Of a DNA stretch of 64,000 nucleotides, positions 337 through 19,139 are shown piece after piece (within the stretch, counting starts at the first letter, position 1; each line of letters begins with the position of its first letter). The translations under genes and the position numbers were made by a program. The notes beneath the pieces are model-generated. The model had not been told where the DNA came from and ran no database searches. It worked only from the letters and a program-made list of their open reading frames with translations. The stretch is from Crocinitomicaceae bacterium (lineage in GTDB: Bacteria; Bacteroidota; Bacteroidia; Flavobacteriales_D; Crocinitomicaceae): assembly GCA_030833845.1 (NCBI GenBank), contig JAURGK010000001.1, positions 1 through 64,000 on the forward strand, read 5' to 3'.

Positions 337-2696
337 GAAGGGTTCGCATTTTTTGAAACTACAATTAATTCATTTAATCGTTGGACACCTTGATCATAAA
401 TTGGCGCTTGTTGCTTGAATTCTTCAATTAATTCCTCAATATTCAAGGCAGTTGGGGCTAGCTGCAGTGAAGGATCTTCAGATTGGTGAATGAGCACAGC
501 AATGTGCTTCGATTGATCAAAAACTTCAATGTTTTTAGTTTGTTGTTCGCGCTTTGCTTTGTACTCTTCGCTGAGCTGTAAGAGGCTCTGCTGTTGCCTT
601 TCTAATTGAGTAATTTCGGTTTGGGTTTGGATTTGTTGTTTTTTGGATTGCAATTGCAAATCCGATTTAAGATTGTCTATTTGCTTTTGAACCACCCCGA
701 TTTGAGATTTGTTTGCAGCCTCTAGTTCAATGATCTGCTGCAAGAGATGTTGCTCAGCATTTTTTGCTGTCTCTAATGTGGCTTGATTGTCATAAGCAGC
801 AATTTGAAATGCCTTGGTCAATATGGTGCGTTGCTCTTCCCAGCCCGCGATTAACTGAAGTGTATCATTTTTAAGGAGTAGTTGTTGATTTTGGTCATTG
901 ATTTGCTCAAGATCCCTCAAAAGCCCTTGGTCGGGAATTTGAGCAGCAGTATTTACTTCTAACCATTGCACATTCAAAGCAATGACTTTTGTTAATTCGT
1001 CTAATTTGAAATGAAGCTTTTCTAGTTCATTTGGAGTTAAGTCACTTTGATTCAACTTAGCCAATTGACTGAGGAGTTGTTCTCTTTCTTTCAAGAGCTG
1101 CTCTAGATCTGTGGTGAGCAACTGTGTTAGTCTAACTTGATTTTCAAGCGCTACTTCGGCAGCCAACAAAGAGTCTGTAATCAAGTTAACGAATGTAGCA
1201 GTGTCGGTTGTTTGAACTTGCCAACGCTGAGCAAGGGTTGGTGAATTTGGCTCTAAATTCGACTTACTGATTCTTTTTGGAATCAATTGACCTTTGGCTG
1301 CCGTGAGTTCTAATTTAGATAAATTCGAAAGGGCTATATCTGCTTGCAGCGGCTTGATGAGATTGAGCACTTGCCATTTTTCCTTACCTAATTCATCATT
1401 GTAGTAACGAATCTGCTGAACCAACTGTGACCCGTTAGGTACTTGTGGTAATTCAAACCGCGTAGTAAAAATGCGCGATGCTCCTTCCACCTCTATCGCT
1501 AATTCAAATGGACCTGCTGAGCTCAAGGCTATTTCCACGATGCCATCTCTATTTGTTAAAAATGGCCCAAATTCTATTCCATTTTTTAAGTCCGTGAAAG
1601 TCATGCTCATTTGGAGCGAATTGGGTTCAAGTTCATTGCTAAACTGCCCTGAGAAAACAAAGGCGGGAAGCATGTTTTCAATGATATCGAGACTGTATAC
1701 TTCAAACTGATTGACGATTCCCTGGCGTTGGGTGGCAAAATACGCGCTGTTTTTGCTATGATCTATTACATAAAATAGATCATTCACAGGGCTTGAATAC
1801 GGATAAGGCATTCTTCTCACTGAACTCACCACATTTGTACTGAGATCATAACTTGCTTCAAATAAATCAAAGCCGCCGATGCTATTTGCATCAGAACTGT
1901 AATAGAGTTTATTTGTTTGAGGATCAAAAAAACCGAAAGCTTCATTGCTCTGCGATGAATTGACACCACCTTCTATCAAAATGGCCTCACTCCAGTTGTT
2001 ATTGGCATCTTTTCTTTGGATATACAAATCAAGGTTGTCACCTTTAGCGCCATATGAAGATAAGATGCGGTATTTCATTCCTCGCTTATAGGCATAAACT
2101 GGGATGTGCTGATGCTTTAAATTATTTTTGGCATGCAAATCTGTGACCTCATAAAACGAATAGTCATCAGGGCCGAAATTATATTGAAGATAAAAGCGTG
2201 GGTCTTGGGTTGTTTGTATGGCTTGTAAAGGCAATTGAACATAACCGTGAATTTCTGCAGCCGCTCTTTTTGTCTGCTCTATCAAATGACTCACCTTTTT
2301 GTGATTTTTTGATTCGGCACTTAATTTTTGATAATTGTCAAAGCACTTTTGCGCTGCTTCAAAAAAATACTGTTCTTGATAAATGAGGCCTCTATAGTAG
2401 TAATTCAAAGGGTCTACCTCTTGTTTGAGCCCAATAACGAGGTCAAAATATTTAGCTGCTTGGAAATGATTTTCAATTTCAAATAAGCATACTCCGTAGC
2501 GAAAATTATATTTAGAATTTTGTTGTTCTTTGGCTAAAAGTTGGCGGTAATCAATAAGAGCAATGTCGTATTGACGGAGGTTAAACGCCTGGTCAGCACG
2601 TTTTTCAATTTGAGTAAAATTTTGGGCATAGCTGTGTGAAATTTGCCCAAAAAACAAAAATAAAACGATTTTTAGTAATAGATCTTTACTGTACAC
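1..2696 (-). CDS. TPR and PD40-repeat exported protein with coiled coil and Ser/Glu-rich repeats (C-terminus off window)
   Basis: Open frame without stop to the left edge, so at least 898 residues and incomplete at its C-terminus. I start it at a GTG: an in-frame TAG lies a few codons upstream, and the GTG gives a clean signal peptide (KDLLLKIVLFLFFGQISHSYAQ region). Next come TPR-like helices (about residues 25-150), a PD40-like beta-propeller stretch (SIGGFDLFEA and YFATQRQG motifs, about 170-330), an Ig-like segment, then a long Gln/Leu/Glu-rich coiled coil (about 480-760). It ends in tandem repeats of the form SI(N/K)EESSQEESI. The TPR plus PD40 order resembles PorE-like envelope proteins linked to T9SS, but any OmpA domain would lie outside the window. 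It follows plsY by 23 bases in a minus-strand run. Function is not established. Confidence 0.75.
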   Translation of the reverse strand, partial: MYSKDLLLKIVLFLFFGQISHSYAQNFTQIEKRADQAFNLRQYDIALIDYRQLLAKEQQNSKYNFRYGVCLFEIENHFQAAKYFDLVIGLKQEVDPLNYYYRGLIYQEQYFFEAAQKCFDNYQKLSAESKNHKKVSHLIEQTKRAAAEIHGYVQLPLQAIQTTQDPRFYLQYNFGPDDYSFYEVTDLHAKNNLKHQHIPVYAYKRGMKYRILSSYGAKGDNLDLYIQRKDANNNWSEAILIEGGVNSSQSNEAFGFFDPQTNKLYYSSDANSIGGFDLFEASYDLSTNVVSSVRRMPYPYSSPVNDLFYVIDHSKNSAYFATQRQGIVNQFEVYSLDIIENMLPAFVFSGQFSNELEPNSLQMSMTFTDLKNGIEFGPFLTNRDGIVEIALSSAGPFELAIEVEGASRIFTTRFELPQVPNGSQLVQQIRYYNDELGKEKWQVLNLIKPLQADIALSNLSKLELTAAKGQLIPKRISKSNLEPNSPTLAQRWQVQTTDTATFVNLITDSLLAAEVALENQVRLTQLLTTDLEQLLKEREQLLSQLAKLNQSDLTPNELEKLHFKLDELTKVIALNVQWLEVNTAAQIPDQGLLRDLEQINDQNQQLLLKNDTLQLIAGWEEQRTILTKAFQIAAYDNQATLETAKNAEQHLLQQIIELEAANKSQIGVVQKQIDNLKSDLQLQSKKQQIQTQTEITQLERQQQSLLQLSEEYKAKREQQTKNIEVFDQSKHIAVLIHQSEDPSLQLAPTALNIEELIEEFKQQAPIYDQGVQRLNELIVVSKNANPSIKEESSQEESISQNTTSIKEESSQEESISQNTTSINQESSQEESITQETTSIKEESSQEESISQNTTSINQESSKEEPITQETTSINEETSSQEESITQETTSINEETSSQ

Positions 2697-7866: not shown

Positions 7867-8705
7867 TTTATTTTTGTTAGGAGCACTACAGCCCAGTTTT
7901 CTTTATCTAAGGTAGATTGATGCATGAATCCATGCTTTTGAGCCTCTATAATTAAATCTGGCGCATCGGTTACAAAAAAACCGCTCAAAACCAACACACC
8001 ACCCATCTTAAGCGCGCTGCTATAAGAAGCTAACTGTGCTAAAAGTACATTTTTATTGATGTTGGCAAGTACAATATCAAATAGAATTTGAGGTATAGCC
8101 GAAGCATCACCATGGATAGCCTTGATAGACCGACAGTGATTTAATGCAATGTTCTCCAATATATTTTCTGCCGACCATTCTTCAATTTCAATGGCTATAA
8201 TTTCTTTTGCTCCCAATTGCTCCGCTAAGATGGCAAGCACACCTGTACCTGAACCCATATCCAATACCACGCTATCTTTAAAATCCATTTGCAACATTTG
8301 TTGGCAAATAAGGTGTGTGGTTTGGTGATGACCTGTTCCAAAACTCATTTTTGGTAATATCTGGATCTCTATCCCGTCAAAGGTTGGCAATTGATGAAAA
8401 GGAGCCACAATTCTAAGTTCATTGGCAATAAAGACTGGCTCAAATTGTGATTCCCATTCGGCATTCCAATTTTGTTGCTCGATGATTTTTAAATCATAAT
8501 GGTCTATCATTCCACCCCTATGTGCCAAATCTGTTAAACCATTTTGCAAAGCAGCGCCATTAAAAAGTTCTTCTTGAATGTATGCCTTAAGCAAAGGTTT
8601 CTCTTCGACAAAACTCTCAAAATCTATTTCGGCCAAATGAGCAACAAATATGTCGTGCCAATGGTCGAAATCAGAAAGTTTTAGGTTCAATTCGTAATAA
8701 TTCAT
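7863..8705 (-). CDS. prmA: Ribosomal protein L11 methyltransferase PrmA
   Basis: SAM-dependent enzyme that trimethylates ribosomal protein L11. At 280 residues it matches the family. The N-terminal substrate-recognition domain is followed by MSFGTGHHQTT (120-130), the SAM-binding loop VLDMGSGTGVLAI (147-159), the acidic EIEEW strand end and ANINKNVLLA (214-223), which carries the Asn found in this family. Its ATG overlaps the tpiA stop by 4 bases and its own stop overlaps the next gene by 4, so translation of the three is probably coupled. Confidence 0.95.
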   Translation of the reverse strand: MNYYELNLKLSDFDHWHDIFVAHLAEIDFESFVEEKPLLKAYIQEELFNGAALQNGLTDLAHRGGMIDHYDLKIIEQQNWNAEWESQFEPVFIANELRIVAPFHQLPTFDGIEIQILPKMSFGTGHHQTTHLICQQMLQMDFKDSVVLDMGSGTGVLAILAEQLGAKEIIAIEIEEWSAENILENIALNHCRSIKAIHGDASAIPQILFDIVLANINKNVLLAQLASYSSALKMGGVLVLSGFFVTDAPDLIIEAQKHGFMHQSTLDKENWAVVLLTKIK

Positions 8706-12015: not shown

Positions 12016-12065
12016 ATGAAACTTTTTTATGTACTTTCGTATGATTGTACAACATTAACAAGCAT

Positions 12066-13010
12066 ATGAGAGCTTTAACATTATTTTTTGCTTTAAGTTT
12101 TGCATGGATTGGACGCGCCCAAGCGCCATCGGCAAACTTTACTGTATCTGACGAGGATAACATACTTTGCCAAGGAGACTGCATTTATGTTGTTAATAAC
12201 TCCACTGGAGATGACCTCACTTACCTTTGGACATTTCAAAACGCAACTCCTGCCACTTTTATAGGTCAGAACCCTGGACCTATTTGCTTTAATACTGCAA
12301 GCACAGCAGGCCCGTTTGCCATCACGCTGAGCGCCACAAATGCACAAGGCGCTGTAAGTACAAGCACACAATTTGTAACTGTTTTGCCAATGCCATCGGT
12401 AACAAGCACTATCTCAGACACCTTAGGGGGTGTTTATGTGGTGATTGCTGACACCACCATCGATATGTTTCAAGAAGCTTACTTGTACGCAGAAGGTGCT
12501 CCAATGGGCGGAAATTTAACCTGGTATCCAAGTGGCGTTGTCCAGGATAGTATTTCGGGTTGTACCGCTTGTATTGCTGGCGATTCATTGACAGTGACTC
12601 CATTTTACACCACTTATTATGTTGTTGAGTATGGTTTAAATGGATGTTACGCTTATGATACAGTATTGGTTACTGTTAATTTTTCAAATCAAGTTCAAGT
12701 TGTGCTGCCTAATTCCTTTTCTCCAAACGGAGACGGAGAAAACGATTATTTTCGAGTTCTTACCAATGTAGATGCCAACAGCAATTTCGGCAATGACTTT
12801 GAAGAAGGAGGCGCTCTTGCCGAGATTGATTTACGAATTTTTAACCGCTACGGCCAACAGGTATTTCGTACAACAGATGTCAAAGAAGGATGGGATGGTA
12901 CCTACAAAGGAAAGGCCATGAACCCAGCCACTTATACCTATATTCTTAATTTTCGCACTATTGATGGCCGTTCTGGCTCGCGAAAAGGCAATGTGACCCT
13001 ATTTAGATAA
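12066..13010 (+). CDS. PKD-like secreted protein with T9SS type B (CHU_C) sorting domain
   Basis: A signal peptide (MRALTLFFALSFAWIGRAQA) follows the chosen ATG, which I prefer to an in-frame start seven codons upstream. The middle has a PKD/Ig-like fold (YVVNNSTGDDLTYLWTF; AITLSATNAQG). The last 95 or so residues are a gliding motility-associated C-terminal domain: LPNSFSPNGDGENDYF, LRIFNRYGQQVF and EGWDGTYKGKAM are diagnostic. Type B cargo is exported by T9SS with help from a PorP/SprF protein, and one lies only 4 bases downstream. Probably surface attached or released; its ligand is unknown. Confidence 0.9.
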   Translation: MRALTLFFALSFAWIGRAQAPSANFTVSDEDNILCQGDCIYVVNNSTGDDLTYLWTFQNATPATFIGQNPGPICFNTASTAGPFAITLSATNAQGAVSTSTQFVTVLPMPSVTSTISDTLGGVYVVIADTTIDMFQEAYLYAEGAPMGGNLTWYPSGVVQDSISGCTACIAGDSLTVTPFYTTYYVVEYGLNGCYAYDTVLVTVNFSNQVQVVLPNSFSPNGDGENDYFRVLTNVDANSNFGNDFEEGGALAEIDLRIFNRYGQQVFRTTDVKEGWDGTYKGKAMNPATYTYILNFRTIDGRSGSRKGNVTLFR

Positions 13011-13014
13011 GACT

Positions 13015-14037
13015 ATGAAAAGCAACTTTATTTTAGCTATTTGTCTAGCTTCCTCGTTAAGTGCAGCAGCCCAACAAGATCGCATCATCTCTAATTGGTC
13101 TCAGTCACAAATGATCTACAACCCTGCAGCAGTTGCTACAGGTGCGTCCGATATGAGTTTTTTCGCCAACCACCGCTCACAATGGCTGAGTATTCCTGAA
13201 ATGGGTATAGGTATGCGCAGTAACTTTTTGAATGGAGAATTTAAAGTAAAAGAAGAAGGGCTCTCTAACCGAAACAATTTTGGAGTTGGATTTAGCATAC
13301 TTAGTGATCAGACGGGCTCGGCCAATTTAACGACACTCAGTGTATCCCTACCCTTGAATTACACCATTGCTTTGGATCGCCAAAATAAGCTCAGTATTGG
13401 TATGTCGCCAGGATTTATTCAACAAGCATCAGATCGTTCATCTCAGACTTGGGAAAACCAATGGAATGGCAGTGTATTTGACCCGGCGCTTAATGTAGAA
13501 AATAGCATTAATGGCTCTTATGCCACCATGGACCTAGGAACTGGTATTTATTTCCAACACCAAATCAATAATCGCTCCTCGTTTTATGCAGGTTATGCGC
13601 TCAATCATCTGATCAAACCAAAAATGGCGTGGTCTTTTGGTGGTGATAAAATGTATATGCAAATGGTACTGCAAGGGGGTGCCGATTTAGCCACCCGTAA
13701 TCCAGACTTTAGAATACAGCCAAATTTTGTGTTTTTCCGAGTAGCAAATACCAATAGCCTGACCCTTGGCGCCACTTTTGAAAATACCATCAAAGAAGGT
13801 TCAAAAATTACTGGCATCAACAAATCAAACTGTGTCAATTACGGTGTGTATTATCGTCACAATGACGCCATTGTAGCCACCTTCGGCATGAAAGTTTCTC
13901 AATTCCGCTTTGGATTATCTTTTGATGCCAATACCTCAAAACTCAATTCGGCAACTGGTGGAATTGGTGGCGCTGAAATCTATTTCAAAGCCCTGATGAA
14001 CTATAAGAAATTCAATGCACAATCACGCATGAAATAA
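13015..14037 (+). CDS. PorP/SprF family T9SS outer-membrane protein
   Basis: The signal peptide MKSNFILAICLASSLSAAAQQ is followed by the family opening: a run ending MIYNPAAVA, then FFANHRSQW. The rest is a beta-barrel-like series of amphipathic strands (340 residues). PorP/SprF proteins sit in the outer membrane and are needed for export or anchoring of type B cargo, and the CHU_C protein directly upstream is the evident partner. A rho-independent terminator follows 29 bases after the stop, so the pair forms its own transcript. Confidence 0.92.
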   Translation: MKSNFILAICLASSLSAAAQQDRIISNWSQSQMIYNPAAVATGASDMSFFANHRSQWLSIPEMGIGMRSNFLNGEFKVKEEGLSNRNNFGVGFSILSDQTGSANLTTLSVSLPLNYTIALDRQNKLSIGMSPGFIQQASDRSSQTWENQWNGSVFDPALNVENSINGSYATMDLGTGIYFQHQINNRSSFYAGYALNHLIKPKMAWSFGGDKMYMQMVLQGGADLATRNPDFRIQPNFVFFRVANTNSLTLGATFENTIKEGSKITGINKSNCVNYGVYYRHNDAIVATFGMKVSQFRFGLSFDANTSKLNSATGGIGGAEIYFKALMNYKKFNAQSRMK

Positions 14038-14104: not shown

Positions 14105-14392
14105 ATGGATCGCTTGTTGGGTGAAATAATTCAAAGTAAAGACAATTTTGTTTGCAAGCATACTGGGGAAGAGCTGCTGCTTATCCCCCTCAAAGACAAT
14201 GTTGCAGACTTTAATCAATATTTGGTGCTCAACGAATTGGGGGCCTATATTTGGGATTTGTTAGACAGCCAATCGACCTTTGGCTATTTACATGAGAAAG
14301 TTTATGCAGAGTTTGAAGTCTCTTCCACCCAATTAAAAACTGATCTTGAGCAATTTATTGTTTCTCTTCATCAATATACTTGCAAACAATGA
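14105..14392 (+). CDS. PqqD-like peptide-binding (RRE) protein
   Basis: The 95-residue length and the pattern YLVLNELGAYIWDLLDSQ, followed by LHEKVYAEFEVS and LKTDLEQFIVSL, match PqqD-like winged-helix domains. These RiPP recognition elements bind leader peptides of ribosomal peptides and present them to modifying enzymes. Its stop overlaps the start of an HprK-like kinase (ATGA), and a nucleotidyltransferase follows, the same trio as the tailoring genes of paeninodin-type lasso peptides and of HprK-related kinase systems. A likely ligand, a 61-residue peptide with a YxxPxI motif, is encoded about 2.4 kb away on the other strand. Confidence 0.82.
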   Translation: MDRLLGEIIQSKDNFVCKHTGEELLLIPLKDNVADFNQYLVLNELGAYIWDLLDSQSTFGYLHEKVYAEFEVSSTQLKTDLEQFIVSLHQYTCKQ

Positions 14393-15258
14393 ACCCCATT
14401 GGCAGTGCTTGTGTTGCAGGATATCATTTTGCTCTATTCAATCAAAGCTCACTTCCGATAATTTTTGACATTGGCTTTAGTTCATTTCTAAAAGAACAAG
14501 TACCTTGCGCGGATAGAAACCTATCATTTCATGAGGGCTTTATTGAATTTGATATCACCGCCCGCCTTTATCAAGCAAAAAATAATGACCAGCTATTATG
14601 GGAAATAGTTGATACCAATAAAGGTAGGTGGTTTTTGGTGTACCATCCAGAAAATGGCAATTTACAACAACAAGCACAATACGACAGCAAACAAGGTTCT
14701 TGGACTATCCATTGCAAAAGCGAACAGCACCTAAACGAAGATGTACTCAATCCTTTAGCCTATCCCATGGCCCCATTGCTTTGGTATCAGCTCACCACCG
14801 AAGAGCCATTACTTTTGATACACGCCTCAGGTATCTTTGACGGAGAAAAAGGTAGGATTTTTGCAGGGTTTAGCGGTGTAGGAAAAAGTACCATGGCTAA
14901 AATTTGGCAGCAAGCCGGCGCTCAAATAATCAATGATGATCGCTTATTGATTAAAAAAGAAAACGATGGCACATGGCGCATGCACAATACACCTATGTAT
15001 TACCAAGACGAACCAAAAAGTGCCAAATTACAGCACATTTACTTCCCGTATCATCATCCGAGCAACACACATGATTTAATCCTTGGAGCCAAAGCCATTG
15101 CCCAACTTCTTGCCTTTACTATTCATCATGGTTATGACATCAAGCACCTTTTGCATCATAGCCTCATTGCCGAAGAGCTTCTAAAAGATCTGGGTGCCGC
15201 AAAACTTGGTGTCGTGCCAAATGAGCAAATCGTCCTATTCATTAAAGCAAATGAATAA
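14389..15258 (+). CDS. HprK-like P-loop kinase
   Basis: A 289-residue protein with a Walker A loop GFSGVGKST at 160-168 after a strand ending LLLIHASGIF (141-150), and INDDRLLI (181-188) as the Walker B-like acidic pair. This arrangement is that of HPr kinase-related proteins, shown in lasso peptide pathways to phosphorylate a serine of the peptide. The N-terminal 130 residues are poorly conserved. Here no HPr or PTS gene is nearby, so a peptide substrate is more likely. The ATG overlaps the PqqD stop by 4 bases; a TTG three codons upstream is a weaker start. Confidence 0.82.
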   Translation: MNPIGSACVAGYHFALFNQSSLPIIFDIGFSSFLKEQVPCADRNLSFHEGFIEFDITARLYQAKNNDQLLWEIVDTNKGRWFLVYHPENGNLQQQAQYDSKQGSWTIHCKSEQHLNEDVLNPLAYPMAPLLWYQLTTEEPLLLIHASGIFDGEKGRIFAGFSGVGKSTMAKIWQQAGAQIINDDRLLIKKENDGTWRMHNTPMYYQDEPKSAKLQHIYFPYHHPSNTHDLILGAKAIAQLLAFTIHHGYDIKHLLHHSLIAEELLKDLGAAKLGVVPNEQIVLFIKANE

Positions 15259-16348
15259 AGGTAAGTTACGTCCGGAATTGGAGCTCATGCTTCGCTTGAG
15301 CCATCCAAGTTGCACAGAGCAAAAAGCTCATACCTTACTCTCAAACCTGCCGGTCGACTTCGATTGGCAATACTTCATTGACCGAGCAATTGCTACCCAT
15401 TTTGCAGGGTACTTACTCCCCTACCCAACTTTAAATGAAACATTCTACCCCGAAGGCATTCTAAAAAAAATAAAGGCCTATCAACATCGGATATTATTAC
15501 ACGGAACACTACTCAGAGAGGCCTGCTTAAAAATTGCTACAATACTTAATCAAGAAAAAAAACCTTACGCTATACTTAAAGGCTTTGATCTACATTTTAG
15601 AAATTCAATATCTCTTAAAACAAGACAAATATCGGATATTGATATACTTATCGATGAAAATGACCTTGAGTCAATTGCCCATGTCTTAGAAGCGCAAGGC
15701 TATACCATTATCAGACACCAATATAAATCTAAATGGCATCAACAATGGCTCAAGACACATGCACCTATGAGTGCAAAACAAGAATCAGTATCCATTGATA
15801 TTCATACAAATGCCGTTGACCAAGTACACCAAATTCCATTTGAAATCAATCTCAAAGAACTATCTCAAATTAGCGTAAACGGTACGCAAGTAAATATGCT
15901 TGCCCCCGAAGTGAGCAATTTATTTCTTAAAGTACATGCATACAAGCACTTAAATGCACTCAGCAACTTAAAACCCTCAATGCTCATTGATCTATATCAA
16001 CTGAATCAATCTACTGCTGCCAAGGAAAATGAACTCAATAAAATGATCTATGAAATGGATGGTTTTACAAACCGAGTTCATACATTGAATTTCAATCAAA
16101 AACATCTATTTGATCAGTTTTTCTTAAAACAATTAGCAGGTGAAAAATTAAATTTGACTTTTCGGATCAAACGTATCTTTAAAAGATTGCGTCCTGTAAA
16201 ATCCATTTATAAGAGCATCGTACTTCTTTACTTTGATCTCTTTCCACAGAAATCATTCTTGATTTACCGATTCGGCAATGGAAATTATGTCCTGTTGCTA
16301 TTTAAACGAATTTTTGATGCGTTTGGTAAATCTTACGGGGAAAAGTAG
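15251..16348 (+). CDS. Nucleotidyltransferase family protein (NTP_transf_5 type)
   Basis: A 365-residue protein of the minimal nucleotidyltransferase type. The core has YAILKGFDL (106-114) followed by R125 and SDIDILI (128-134), giving the two metal-binding aspartates, then IDIHTN as the likely third acidic position. Proteins of this family accompany HprK-like kinases and PqqD proteins in lasso and related peptide clusters, where they are proposed to add a nucleotide or sugar phosphate to the peptide. It overlaps the kinase by 8 bases. Its last 51 bases overlap the 3-prime end of the convergent peptidase gene. Confidence 0.82.
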   Translation: MNKGKLRPELELMLRLSHPSCTEQKAHTLLSNLPVDFDWQYFIDRAIATHFAGYLLPYPTLNETFYPEGILKKIKAYQHRILLHGTLLREACLKIATILNQEKKPYAILKGFDLHFRNSISLKTRQISDIDILIDENDLESIAHVLEAQGYTIIRHQYKSKWHQQWLKTHAPMSAKQESVSIDIHTNAVDQVHQIPFEINLKELSQISVNGTQVNMLAPEVSNLFLKVHAYKHLNALSNLKPSMLIDLYQLNQSTAAKENELNKMIYEMDGFTNRVHTLNFNQKHLFDQFFLKQLAGEKLNLTFRIKRIFKRLRPVKSIYKSIVLLYFDLFPQKSFLIYRFGNGNYVLLLFKRIFDAFGKSYGEK

Positions 16349-16762
16349 AATAATCAAAACGTTTTTCAATACTTCGTTTCGACGATACAATATTTTTCTT
16401 GAAGGTTTTAGCGCTCTATGGTTGGATTTATTATTGATTGTAACAACCTTCCCTAAATACAATTCATTGCCAAACCATTCATCTTGTTCAAGATTGGAAT
16501 CACCCTGTGTACGAACCAGTAATTCTCCGTTTTCGTTTGCAATTTCCACAATTCGGTGCATAATTGCGCGCTGTTCTCTTTTGAAGGCAACTAAATCACC
16601 CAAATGCAGCTCATTGATGGGCACATATTTCAATCCAAGATTCGCTCCCTTCCATACTGAAGGAAACATACTCCAACCACTAGCCAAAAGCTCAACTGTC
16701 TTACCAGAGCGCAGCTCCGCATACATTATATCTATTAAAGAGCTCCGATTGTTTGGCTTCAC
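16298..16762 (-). CDS. S26-type (ER-like Ser/His) signal peptidase family protein
   Basis: A 154-residue protein with the order GWSMFP (Ser31), LGDLVAF (54-60), MHRIVEI (68-74) and GDSN (87-90). This is the box order of SipW/ER-type signal peptidases, where His (here His69) replaces the usual Lys as general base; Lys61 is an alternative. A hydrophobic stretch near residues 132-145 may be a membrane anchor. It starts 4 bases inside the end of the short-peptide gene, so the two are translated together. I infer that it cleaves that peptide's leader. It is too short to be a typical housekeeping LepB. Confidence 0.78.
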   Translation of the reverse strand: MKPNNRSSLIDIMYAELRSGKTVELLASGWSMFPSVWKGANLGLKYVPINELHLGDLVAFKREQRAIMHRIVEIANENGELLVRTQGDSNLEQDEWFGNELYLGKVVTINNKSNHRALKPSRKILYRRNEVLKNVLIILLFPVRFTKRIKNSFK

Positions 16763-16944
16763 CAGCCAAATTTAAATATTTTCTGAATGTATCCTTCGGG
16801 CAATTGTGGCATCGAAGGGTTGGGTGGTGGCCCAGACATCATGACTAATGAAATTTCAGTATCCAATGCAATACGCTCAATTTGCGGCGCTGTATAGCGT
16901 TTCTTTTGCTTGCTTTGAGGCGCTTGGTTTGTGATTTTTTTCAT
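16759..16944 (-). CDS. Candidate ribosomal-peptide precursor (61 aa, YxxPxI leader motif)
   Basis: The peptide has a basic N-terminus, then RYTAPQIERIALDTEISLV (16-34) and a Pro/Gly-rich tail (GPPPNPSMPQLPEG) ending IFKFGW. Tyr17-x-x-Pro20-x-Ile22 matches the YxxPxL motif that PqqD-like proteins recognise in lasso leaders. Short Bacteroidota proteins with IDNEISL-like cores beside S24/S26 peptidases seem familiar to me, but I know of no assigned function. There is no signal peptide. It starts 9 bases after the upstream T9SS cargo gene and overlaps the peptidase start by 4 bases. The core is probably within residues 36-61, with Ser37 and Ser44 as possible phosphorylation sites. Confidence 0.6.
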   Translation of the reverse strand: MKKITNQAPQSKQKKRYTAPQIERIALDTEISLVMMSGPPPNPSMPQLPEGYIQKIFKFGW

Positions 16945-16952
16945 AACCCTTA

Positions 16953-19139
16953 TTATTCTTGGATGAACACTTTTTTCTTTTCTAGTATGTTACCGTACTG
17001 CACCGTTAAGTAATATATTCCTGATGGTACATCGAGCTCAAATTCTGTAATTGATCCCTGCAATTGATCGCTATGCACAACCCTTCCGCTGGCATCACTT
17101 ACCCTCACCGAGCCTTCAATGGTGGTGTTTCTGGGCTGGTCCAAAATGACCTGAATTTTTCCTTTTGAATCGGTGGTCACAACAATTTCACCCCCTTCGG
17201 CATAGCTATTGTCTGTAGGATCAAACTCATTGCTCGGACCTTGGGCTTCAACACCATAGTAGGAAGGATAAAAATGCAATACAAATCGGCCCTGTACCAA
17301 CCCACTACTTGCATAGAAAGCATACGTATCGTTGATTGTAAAATCCGTCAATATACCCTCTTGTTTATCTTCGAGTAAAATTTTACCGTAATCAAGCACA
17401 TATTCTGTAAGGTGTAGCTCATAATTCTTACTTGTTGGTACATCCAAATAAAGTGGGACGGATATCTTCTTTTTATTATTCTTTAATCCATTCATCACTA
17501 GCTTTTTGCCCGCTGCCATGGTATATATCTGTGGCGCACCGCTCACAAACATTTTTTCTGAATCATTCGCATCCACTGCATTGCTCATGTCTTGATTCAT
17601 ATAGATCAAGGCCTGATCAAATCTAGCGTCATCCACTAAATTCACCCTCGCTAAAATAGGAAAATAAGTGCTGTTTTTAAGGCCGACATTGCCAGATTGA
17701 TGCGAAGTAAAAGCGCGTTGAAAATTCAATTGTCCTGCTGAAGAGGAGAGTGGATTTGTTACATTGACCTTAACCCATATGGCTTGAAGAGGTGCGATGT
17801 ATTGCGCAGTGGTAGAGCCAGTTGCACCAAGACTATAAGAAGATGTATTCGACTCTAAACCAGTCGAGGCATTATAAGCAATCAGAGCACTAAGGTCCGG
17901 ACCTGAAGAATTGTAAGACCTGATATAATAAGTAGGAGAAATATTGGTTGAATTTGAATGCACTTGTGCCCAATCCAAATATGCGGTATATGGGTTGGCA
18001 ACCAAATGCCAACCTGCATAGGTGCCTGCATTATTACTCAAGCTCAGAGTTTCATCTTGCGCATATAAATTTGCACCCGAAAAGGTCAGTGTTCCATTGT
18101 CTGATCGGCGATGCACATAGCCAGTTGTTGGACTTAAGTTCGTAGCATCGGCCACAGCCGCATACGCACCATTAGAAAAAGACCAAACCTTATTCAAGTC
18201 TCCAGCATTTCCAAAACCCACACTTCGTGCACATGGCACCGGTGTACCCATATACCAATAACGCCCCGTCAATGTATTACCTGAACCAGCATTGTCACTT
18301 AACGTTTGCTTTATATTGTATGTACCCGAACCTGTAACACTAGATCCCTGCTTAAATGTCGCACCGTTTTCAATAGTCATAGTACCATTGTTGGTAAGGG
18401 TTCCGGTTACGGTGAGTTCCACACCTGAGTCTAATGTTAATGTAATCCCAGATTTAATTTGAATTGAAGTCACGGATAAATCAGATGAGATATTGACATC
18501 ATGATTGATTACTGCATAAGACAAGTTTGAAGGTACAACATTGTCTGCCCAAATTGCTTGAGATGACCAAGTTCCTGAGGAAATAGTTTTGCTCAAAACC
18601 CTAAAAGTTGCTTTGTAATTATTTCCATTATTATTAGCATATACAGTTCCTGGTGTACCAGTTGCGTTTGAATATACTTCAAGATAATAATTTCCAGCAC
18701 TTAAACCACTTAGTAGGTCTATGGAATTTGATACACTCTGCCAAGTTTGATTTCCACCACAACCTCCAGGATCATTAGAATTCCAATTATAACTTATCGA
18801 GCTAAAACTACTTGGAGTCGAAGAGACTTGATAAACCCGATAATAAAGATTCCCGCCGGATACATCTCCACCATTACATTTATATGTTTTATTTTGACCC
18901 CCTTTGAGCGTCAAATTTTGTATTCCTTGTTCAAACACCCCTAAATCTAAACTATTGAAGTCAAGGTTGGAAGTGGTTGCATTCAAATCATACCATGAAA
19001 GACCACTAGAATTTATATCCAACACGACATACGATTCATAAATTCCAATTTGAGCCTGTCCCCAACTCAAACCAATATTTCCAAATAAAAATGCACACAG
19101 AAAAAGTGCGAAACGGGTATGTAACGTTCTAGAATTCAT
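16953..19139 (-). CDS. Secreted beta-rich protein with T9SS type A sorting domain
   Basis: A 728-residue cargo protein. The signal peptide includes ALFLCAFLFGNIGLSWGQA. A G8/beta-helix-like centre (SGTWSSQAIWADNVVPSN, followed by repeats like LTNNGTMTIENGATF) leads into a segment that many Bacteroidota surface proteins carry (GRYWYMGTPV; GWHLVANPYTAYLDW). The last 75 residues are a type A sorting domain: VRVSDASGRVV, then VPSGIYYLTV and KKVFIQE. It is the first gene of a minus-strand unit with the 61-residue peptide and the peptidase, so it may be a surface product tied to that system or just upstream of it. Confidence 0.88.
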   Translation of the reverse strand: MNSRTLHTRFALFLCAFLFGNIGLSWGQAQIGIYESYVVLDINSSGLSWYDLNATTSNLDFNSLDLGVFEQGIQNLTLKGGQNKTYKCNGGDVSGGNLYYRVYQVSSTPSSFSSISYNWNSNDPGGCGGNQTWQSVSNSIDLLSGLSAGNYYLEVYSNATGTPGTVYANNNGNNYKATFRVLSKTISSGTWSSQAIWADNVVPSNLSYAVINHDVNISSDLSVTSIQIKSGITLTLDSGVELTVTGTLTNNGTMTIENGATFKQGSSVTGSGTYNIKQTLSDNAGSGNTLTGRYWYMGTPVPCARSVGFGNAGDLNKVWSFSNGAYAAVADATNLSPTTGYVHRRSDNGTLTFSGANLYAQDETLSLSNNAGTYAGWHLVANPYTAYLDWAQVHSNSTNISPTYYIRSYNSSGPDLSALIAYNASTGLESNTSSYSLGATGSTTAQYIAPLQAIWVKVNVTNPLSSSAGQLNFQRAFTSHQSGNVGLKNSTYFPILARVNLVDDARFDQALIYMNQDMSNAVDANDSEKMFVSGAPQIYTMAAGKKLVMNGLKNNKKKISVPLYLDVPTSKNYELHLTEYVLDYGKILLEDKQEGILTDFTINDTYAFYASSGLVQGRFVLHFYPSYYGVEAQGPSNEFDPTDNSYAEGGEIVVTTDSKGKIQVILDQPRNTTIEGSVRVSDASGRVVHSDQLQGSITEFELDVPSGIYYLTVQYGNILEKKKVFIQE

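Follow-up and report, generated by a model that had tools for sequence, protein, structure and literature searches.

We analyzed a gene set in the genome of a Crocinitomicaceae bacterium (GenBank assembly GCA_030833845.1, contig JAURGK010000001.1), in a 64,000-nucleotide stretch, hereafter the window, that spans positions 1 to 64,000 of the forward strand of this contig. The set is predicted to modify a small peptide and adjoins the gene of a protein secreted by the type IX secretion system (T9SS). On the plus strand, it consists of the genes for a PqqD-like protein, that is, a discrete recognition element (RRE) of ribosomally synthesized and post-translationally modified peptides (RiPPs) and putative leader binder (14105..14392; PF05402, E 1.4e-11), an HprK-like kinase (14389..15258, with the ATG at 14389) and an NTP_transf_5 enzyme of the nucleotidyltransferase (NT) fold (15251..16348; PF14907, E 4e-26), which overlap by 4 and 8 bp, respectively. 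The minus strand carries the gene for a 61-aa precursor peptide (16759..16944), the stop of which overlaps the start of the gene for an archaeal/endoplasmic reticulum-type S26 signal-peptidase-like protein, the predicted leader peptidase (16298..16762). An earlier note made from the sequence alone had described these five open reading frames (ORFs) in this arrangement, and the ORFs, the family matches and the conserved catalytic residues bear it out. It overlooked the most unusual part of the locus, the gene for a 728-aa T9SS type A secreted protein (hereafter, the cargo; 16953..19139, minus strand; TIGR04183, 28.6 bits, cutoff 23), which ends 8 bp upstream of the peptide gene, so that the minus-strand unit comprises cargo, peptide and peptidase. 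Within the cargo gene, the T9SS type A sorting domain (residues 662-727) was mapped by TIGR04183 to 16959..17156, minus strand, and a C-terminal module without the sorting domain was delineated at 17190..18200, minus strand, by alignment and by its copies in the host genome.

Matches to Pfam and NCBIfam are firm for the PqqD-like and NTP_transf_5 proteins and weaker for the other two enzymes. The kinase matches TIGR04355 with E 7.2e-11 and 41.8 bits, far under the cutoff of 200, and Pfam Hpr_kinase_C with an E value of just 0.02; a sequence search for a solved structure returned a single meaningless match. The AlphaFold2 (AF2) model of the kinase (pLDDT 96) retrieved PEPCK and HprK/P structures in Foldseek, and H145, K166 and D184 are conserved in 22 of 22 aligned sequences, with D183 in 20 of 22. 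The peptidase falls slightly under the TIGR02228 cutoff of 51.85 (49.4 bits, E 4.5e-13), its best sequence matches in the PDB are SEC11 chains, and S31, H69 and D88 are each conserved in 16 of 16 sequences; in the NT, D129 and D131 are conserved in 15 of 15. The gene set is not a chance assemblage, given that these catalytic residues are kept and that many genomes of the genus carry the set at the same chromosomal site.

Among described systems, the closest is the pathway for linear polyphosphorylated peptides (LPPs), RiPPs encoded by the lpp cluster of Paenibacillus alginolyticus and published in May 2026 (Popov et al. 2026, PMC13381572), so that the combination of genes, which the earlier note had taken to be functionally undescribed, does have a studied counterpart. 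The LPP pathway includes an RRE, an HprK-like kinase, an archaeal-type signal peptidase, an NTP transferase and an MsbA-like exporter; LppB binds YxxP leaders, LppK adds several phosphates to Ser3 of the core (Tyr+18 in the authors' numbering), LppS, which needs Ser, His and Asp, cleaves the leader with the aid of LppB, no effect of LppN was visible, and LppD is the export pump (PMC13381572). The window set shares with this pathway a discrete RRE and a YxxP leader, an HprK-like kinase, an S26 peptidase with Ser/His/Asp, an NTP transferase, and one to several precursors with a conserved leader, a variable core and a conserved Ser just past the leader. By sequence, the PqqD-like protein matches LppB itself (9x8z) best among PDB entries, although weakly (E 0.0022), and the catalytic residues of the peptidase and the kinase agree with the Ser/His/Asp of LppS and with the H-K-D-D set required by lasso kinases (PMC9266682), respectively. 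The differences are that the window set belongs to Bacteroidota and LPPs to Bacillota, that the window locus lacks an MsbA-like exporter, and that its peptide gene lies behind a T9SS cargo gene whereas the LPP precursor is found in a capsule locus. Furthermore, compared with the published LPP leader, YxxPxVLxHQxIxFETxxS (PMC13381572), the window leader has YxxPx[IV] and a downstream Ser but lacks the HQ and FET motifs, and the Ser stands at Tyr+20 rather than Tyr+18. Because the pump is absent locally and the leader details differ, we treat the window set, despite its LPP-like enzymes, as a variant of the LPP pathway and not as a proven member.

Paeninodin/pseudomycoidin-type lasso peptides also involve an RRE, an HprK-like kinase with H-K-D-D, a nucleotidyltransferase and a phosphorylated Ser (proposed in the window), but the macrolactam synthetase and the B2 cysteine peptidase were not found by Pfam among the five set proteins and nine neighbors, and an S26 enzyme is present instead. 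A lasso peptide was thus rejected for lack of a cyclase: in agreement with the earlier note, the Pfam scan of the nine neighboring genes revealed neither a lasso cyclase nor a radical SAM gene nor a transporter. Transporters do occur in the Bacteroidales relatives described below.

The 61-aa peptide, which was delineated by alignments and searches of the genus and the phylum, has no Pfam or NCBIfam match. It combines a leader, Y17xxP20 followed by D28xE30, with Ser37 and a Pro-containing tail. The leader Tyr (codon 16894..16896, minus strand), Pro and Asp are invariant across 34 aligned peptides. Among 76 distinct peptides, counted from the Tyr onward and excluding three matches without the full motif (two of these being the same ORF), 75 have Ser or Thr precisely at Tyr+20, with Ser accounting for 70, and 72 have a Pro within the next five residues; all 42 peptides outside the training set of the profile have Ser/Thr at this position. 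At one locus (L141, 12809-13269, minus strand), four tandem mini-peptides of about 25-27 aa end 0-2 residues past the conserved Ser/Thr. The conserved spacing, together with the mini-peptides that end there, suggests that the residue at Tyr+20 is the one modified, so that Ser37 (codon 16834..16836, minus strand) is the likely phosphorylation site in the window.

We compared the occurrence of the kinase and the peptide across 86 genomes of the genus. The kinase was identified in 17 genomes and the peptide profile in 22, with both in 15 (Fisher 8.8e-10); thus, the co-occurrence that the earlier note had named as a check was observed. The two kinase genomes without the peptide, G072 and G094, encode PqqD, and their contigs end inside the kinase gene.

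Beyond the genus, a search with the single kinase protein matched 10 of 392 genomes of the phylum, the host included. In a set of 287 phylum genomes, the peptide profile (E<=0.01) matched three, the host and two genomes of one Balneolales family, and the close-type kinase (E<=1e-100) was found in the same three; the scores of other HprK-like proteins are much lower (matches in 10 of 287 genomes at E<=1e-10). In the first peptide search of the phylum, two of the four non-self matches were weak and were rejected, one in G129, with an in-frame stop, and the other in G446 (E 0.0066), identical to a weak ORF of locus L083 (13707-13892, E 0.012); a phylum-level Fisher test that had counted G446 was discarded. 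When named genomes were scanned with the kinase alignment, 71 loci were obtained, from Flavobacteriales, Crocinitomicaceae, Fluviicola, Paludibacter, Porphyromonadaceae, Marinilabiliaceae, Carboxylicivirga, Balneolales, Chlorobiota and a few other taxa, including two Clostridia and one Desulfobacteraceae. PqqD is present in 66 of these loci, S26 in 60, NT in 30 and the peptide in 38 (42 with a broader peptide profile). These counts are circular for the genus and two Balneolales loci, from which the HMMs were partly built, so that only the remaining taxa provide independent counts. By these matches, the enzyme set is found in several orders of Bacteroidota, as opposed to the restriction of LPPs and paeninodins to Bacillota, with their role unknown, stated by Popov et al. 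(PMC13381572); a word search of the main text of that paper found neither 'bacteroid' nor 'type ix'.

Three layouts can be distinguished. In the first, that of the window, cargo-peptide pairs accompany PqqD, kinase and NT genes and S26, with no exporter seen in the locus. In the second, of the Paludibacter type, the S26 domain is fused to an ABC transporter in all four long S26 proteins that were scanned (L163, 10830-13076; L152, 1716-3956; L166, 10833-13070; L169, 10925-13180), and more S26 proteins of this length are present in other loci; these fusions represent a peptidase-transporter layout with an unusual peptidase. Often, one to three cargo-peptide pairs precede PqqD and the kinase in this layout (L157, L161-L164, L167-L170), and some stretches, such as L152, L155 and L166, are without such pairs. 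In the third, in Carboxylicivirga and Marinilabiliaceae, the genes are ordered PqqD-peptide-kinase-S26, and an ABC exporter is encoded separately after them (3 of 3 proteins scanned).

The association of the peptide with T9SS cargo recurs within the host genome, the genus, the named loci and the Balneolales family. The host genome has two copies of the C-terminal cargo module (E<=0.001), each with a peptide behind it; the second peptide (G000:C36:13870-14037; L024, 9858-10115, minus strand) lies 22 bp past a T9SS cargo of 1015 aa that shares the module, on a contig other than that of the enzyme genes. Within the genus, counting only the matches listed and with several unpaired cargos and peptides at contig ends, there are 37 module matches in 19 of the 86 genomes, all 19 among the 22 genomes with the peptide (Fisher 2.8e-16); for 24 of the 37 copies, including the two of the host, a peptide on the same strand follows at a distance of 8-122 bp from the end of the match, and 24 of the 34 peptides have this position.

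Of the 53 peptides in the 71 named loci, 27 are immediately preceded by a T9SS cargo and 13 by PqqD; another 10 have no labelled or long neighbor within 260 bp, and the last three belong to other classes. Against a T9SS background of 46 of 940 ORFs, which itself includes the cargos, this enrichment corresponds to a binomial probability of about 1e-21. Thirteen of the 71 loci are, judged by length, contigs of the genus, holding 13 of the 53 peptides and eight of the 27 T9SS pairs; outside these contigs, 19 of 40 peptides follow a T9SS cargo. In the two genomes of the Balneolales family, six of seven peptides follow a T9SS protein. The T9SS labels in the named loci come from HMMs built here and were cross-checked with TIGR04183 on a subset only, where 8 of 8 cargos in one set and 10 of 10 cargo tails in another passed. 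Tandem cargo-peptide pairs occur three times in L163 and twice each in L157, L162, L164 and L172. Among 25 pairs (of an initial 30, four with cargo fragments shorter than 400 aa and one duplicate were removed), cargo similarity correlates with peptide similarity when kinase similarity is controlled for (partial r 0.52, p 0.0002). An AF2 model of the cargo module (pLDDT 79) had no Foldseek match at E<=0.001, and a solved relative was thus not identified. In the literature searched, with subscription papers and preprints outside the search, none of the listed matches describes a pairing of a T9SS cargo with a precursor peptide, and no paper joining type IX secretion with PqqD was found. The window cargo resembles other T9SS type A cargos in being a large protein that ends in a TIGR04183 sorting domain, and differs in having a precursor-peptide gene downstream.

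Overall, the enzymes co-occur with peptides that share YxxP and Ser/Thr at Tyr+20, and the peptide genes often lie behind a T9SS cargo gene. With a probability of about two in three, we interpret the window set as a Bacteroidota version of an LPP-type RiPP pathway that serves T9SS-secreted surface proteins. By homology with the biochemically studied LPP proteins, the PqqD-like protein would probably bind the YxxP leader, the kinase would, with similar confidence, phosphorylate Ser37, and so would the S26 enzyme remove the leader, with cleavage expected near Ser37, at about residue 32 by analogy with LppA. As a further step, the NTP transferase may attach a nucleotide or a sugar to the phosphate, and the product could be exported and work at the surface with the adjoining cargo, possibly through the C-terminal module of the latter. 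The proposal of the earlier note, that the set phosphorylates or nucleotidylates a peptide whose leader the peptidase removes, thus gains from co-occurrence and LPP biochemistry as regards the leader binder, kinase and peptidase; the NTP transferase may or may not be a nucleotidylating enzyme, LppN having had no visible effect and PsmN having been linked to hexose addition (PMC9266682). Since several orders show the pairing, a functional tie of the peptide to the T9SS cargo is probable; the peptide may be an anchor or a cofactor, or may merely share expression with the cargo. The most specific version, in which the phosphorylated, perhaps also glycosylated or nucleotidylated, and exported peptide is a dedicated partner of the cargo, bound by or joined to its C-terminal region at the surface as an anchor or cofactor, seems to us rather unlikely.

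Several observations weigh against this LPP-type, cargo-serving interpretation. The search profiles include the Tyr+20 column and so favor that spacing to some extent. The correlation between cargo and peptide similarity, while fitting a partnership, can arise from linkage alone. No exporter was found by motif among the 55 window ORFs of at least 90 aa, nor by Pfam among the nine neighbors. Seven of the 22 peptide genomes in the genus, three of them 98-99% complete, encode neither the kinase nor PqqD. In five of these (G011, G015, G021, G031 and G102), the contig with the peptide breaks off inside the cargo gene or no more than about 25 bp from it, and in the sister genomes G022 and G080, PqqD is located just past that gene; for G076 and G084, the contig end offers no such explanation. 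In the peptide of G011 (G011:C84; L034 and L130, ORF 1718-2035, plus strand), YxxA replaces YxxP, as if the leader were decaying in this genome without the enzymes.

The strongest rival to a pathway serving the cargo holds that the LPP-like pathway has no functional tie to it, the peptide genes borrowing T9SS transcription or spreading together with the cargo genes; we regard this as a distinct but minority possibility. It draws on two further points against our interpretation. First, the Marinilabiliaceae and Carboxylicivirga loci have no adjoining T9SS gene, so that the family can do without the cargo. Second, the module is widespread in other families that lack a peptide match: it occurs in 58 of 287 phylum genomes at E<=1e-10, of which only two non-self genomes have a peptide match. 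Given the latter result, a cargo module exclusive to peptide genomes phylum-wide was rejected, and exclusivity is claimed for the genus only. The gaps between cargo and peptide genes, too, vary, from 1 to about 130 bp. What speaks against this rival is that the pairing recurs, including as tandem pairs, in Crocinitomicaceae-type Flavobacteriales, Paludibacter-type Bacteroidales and Balneolales, and that no genome of the genus has the module at E<=1e-10 without the peptide.

A secreted antimicrobial or signaling peptide, with the cargo as its delivery or receptor protein, would fit the patchy distribution and the several variable cores per genome; we consider this improbable, as inspection of the locus listings by eye revealed no recurring immunity or regulator gene and the five proteins have no PADLOC match, the latter also leading us to reject a defense system. 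That the kinase, PqqD-like protein and peptidase act on another target, for example, a glycolipid or a T9SS protein, the peptide being an unrelated small protein, is suggested by the 29 of 71 kinase loci in which no peptide was found even with the broader profile (for example, L155, L166 and L174), a count that also weighs against our preferred interpretation, but is very improbable given the RRE-binding YxxP motif, the fixed Ser/Thr spacing and the 13 named loci in which the peptide gene is flanked by the genes for PqqD and HprK.

Some other arrangements in and around these loci are of note. Just upstream of the PqqD gene, window positions 12045-14037 encode a CHU_C protein (type IX signal) and carry a PorP/SprF gene, a neighborhood common to many genomes of the genus. 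In L061 (12276-12903; G101), genes with NTP_transf_2 and HepT-like Pfam matches, resembling an MNT/HepT toxin-antitoxin pair, lie between the NT gene and a cargo. In L075 (11865-14702) and L076 (910-3726), the PqqD gene directly precedes a T9SS-tailed metalloprotease-like gene, which in L075 is of the MXAN_6640 type (NCBIfam, slightly under the cutoff); the kinase and S26 are on the opposite strand, and the peptides are encoded elsewhere in the genome. Related sets with PqqD, NT-like, HprK-like and S26-like proteins occur in L077, L082 and L083, with an ABC transporter in the two that were scanned, L077 and L082, and with adjoining Poly_export and GNVR genes in L077. Among the loci outside the close family (L077, L078, L079, L080, L082, L083, L196, L200 and L202), no peptide match was better than E 0.0046, in L196. 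In L078, two small ORFs with WxxPEL leaders (2528-2761 and 8406-8603), possibly another peptide family, are located near HprK-like genes, PqqD, an S26-like protein and a radical SAM gene (Pfam).

The results extend the LPP-type family to Gram-negative bacteria and raise the possibility of a new layer of T9SS biology. The pairing with T9SS cargo offers a concrete place to seek the role of LPP-type peptides, and Ser37 is a named candidate for the phosphorylation site that can be tested directly. If the peptide were indeed a dedicated partner of the cargo, this would amount to a peptide-based attachment or activation of T9SS proteins and would be the first role for LPP-type peptides.

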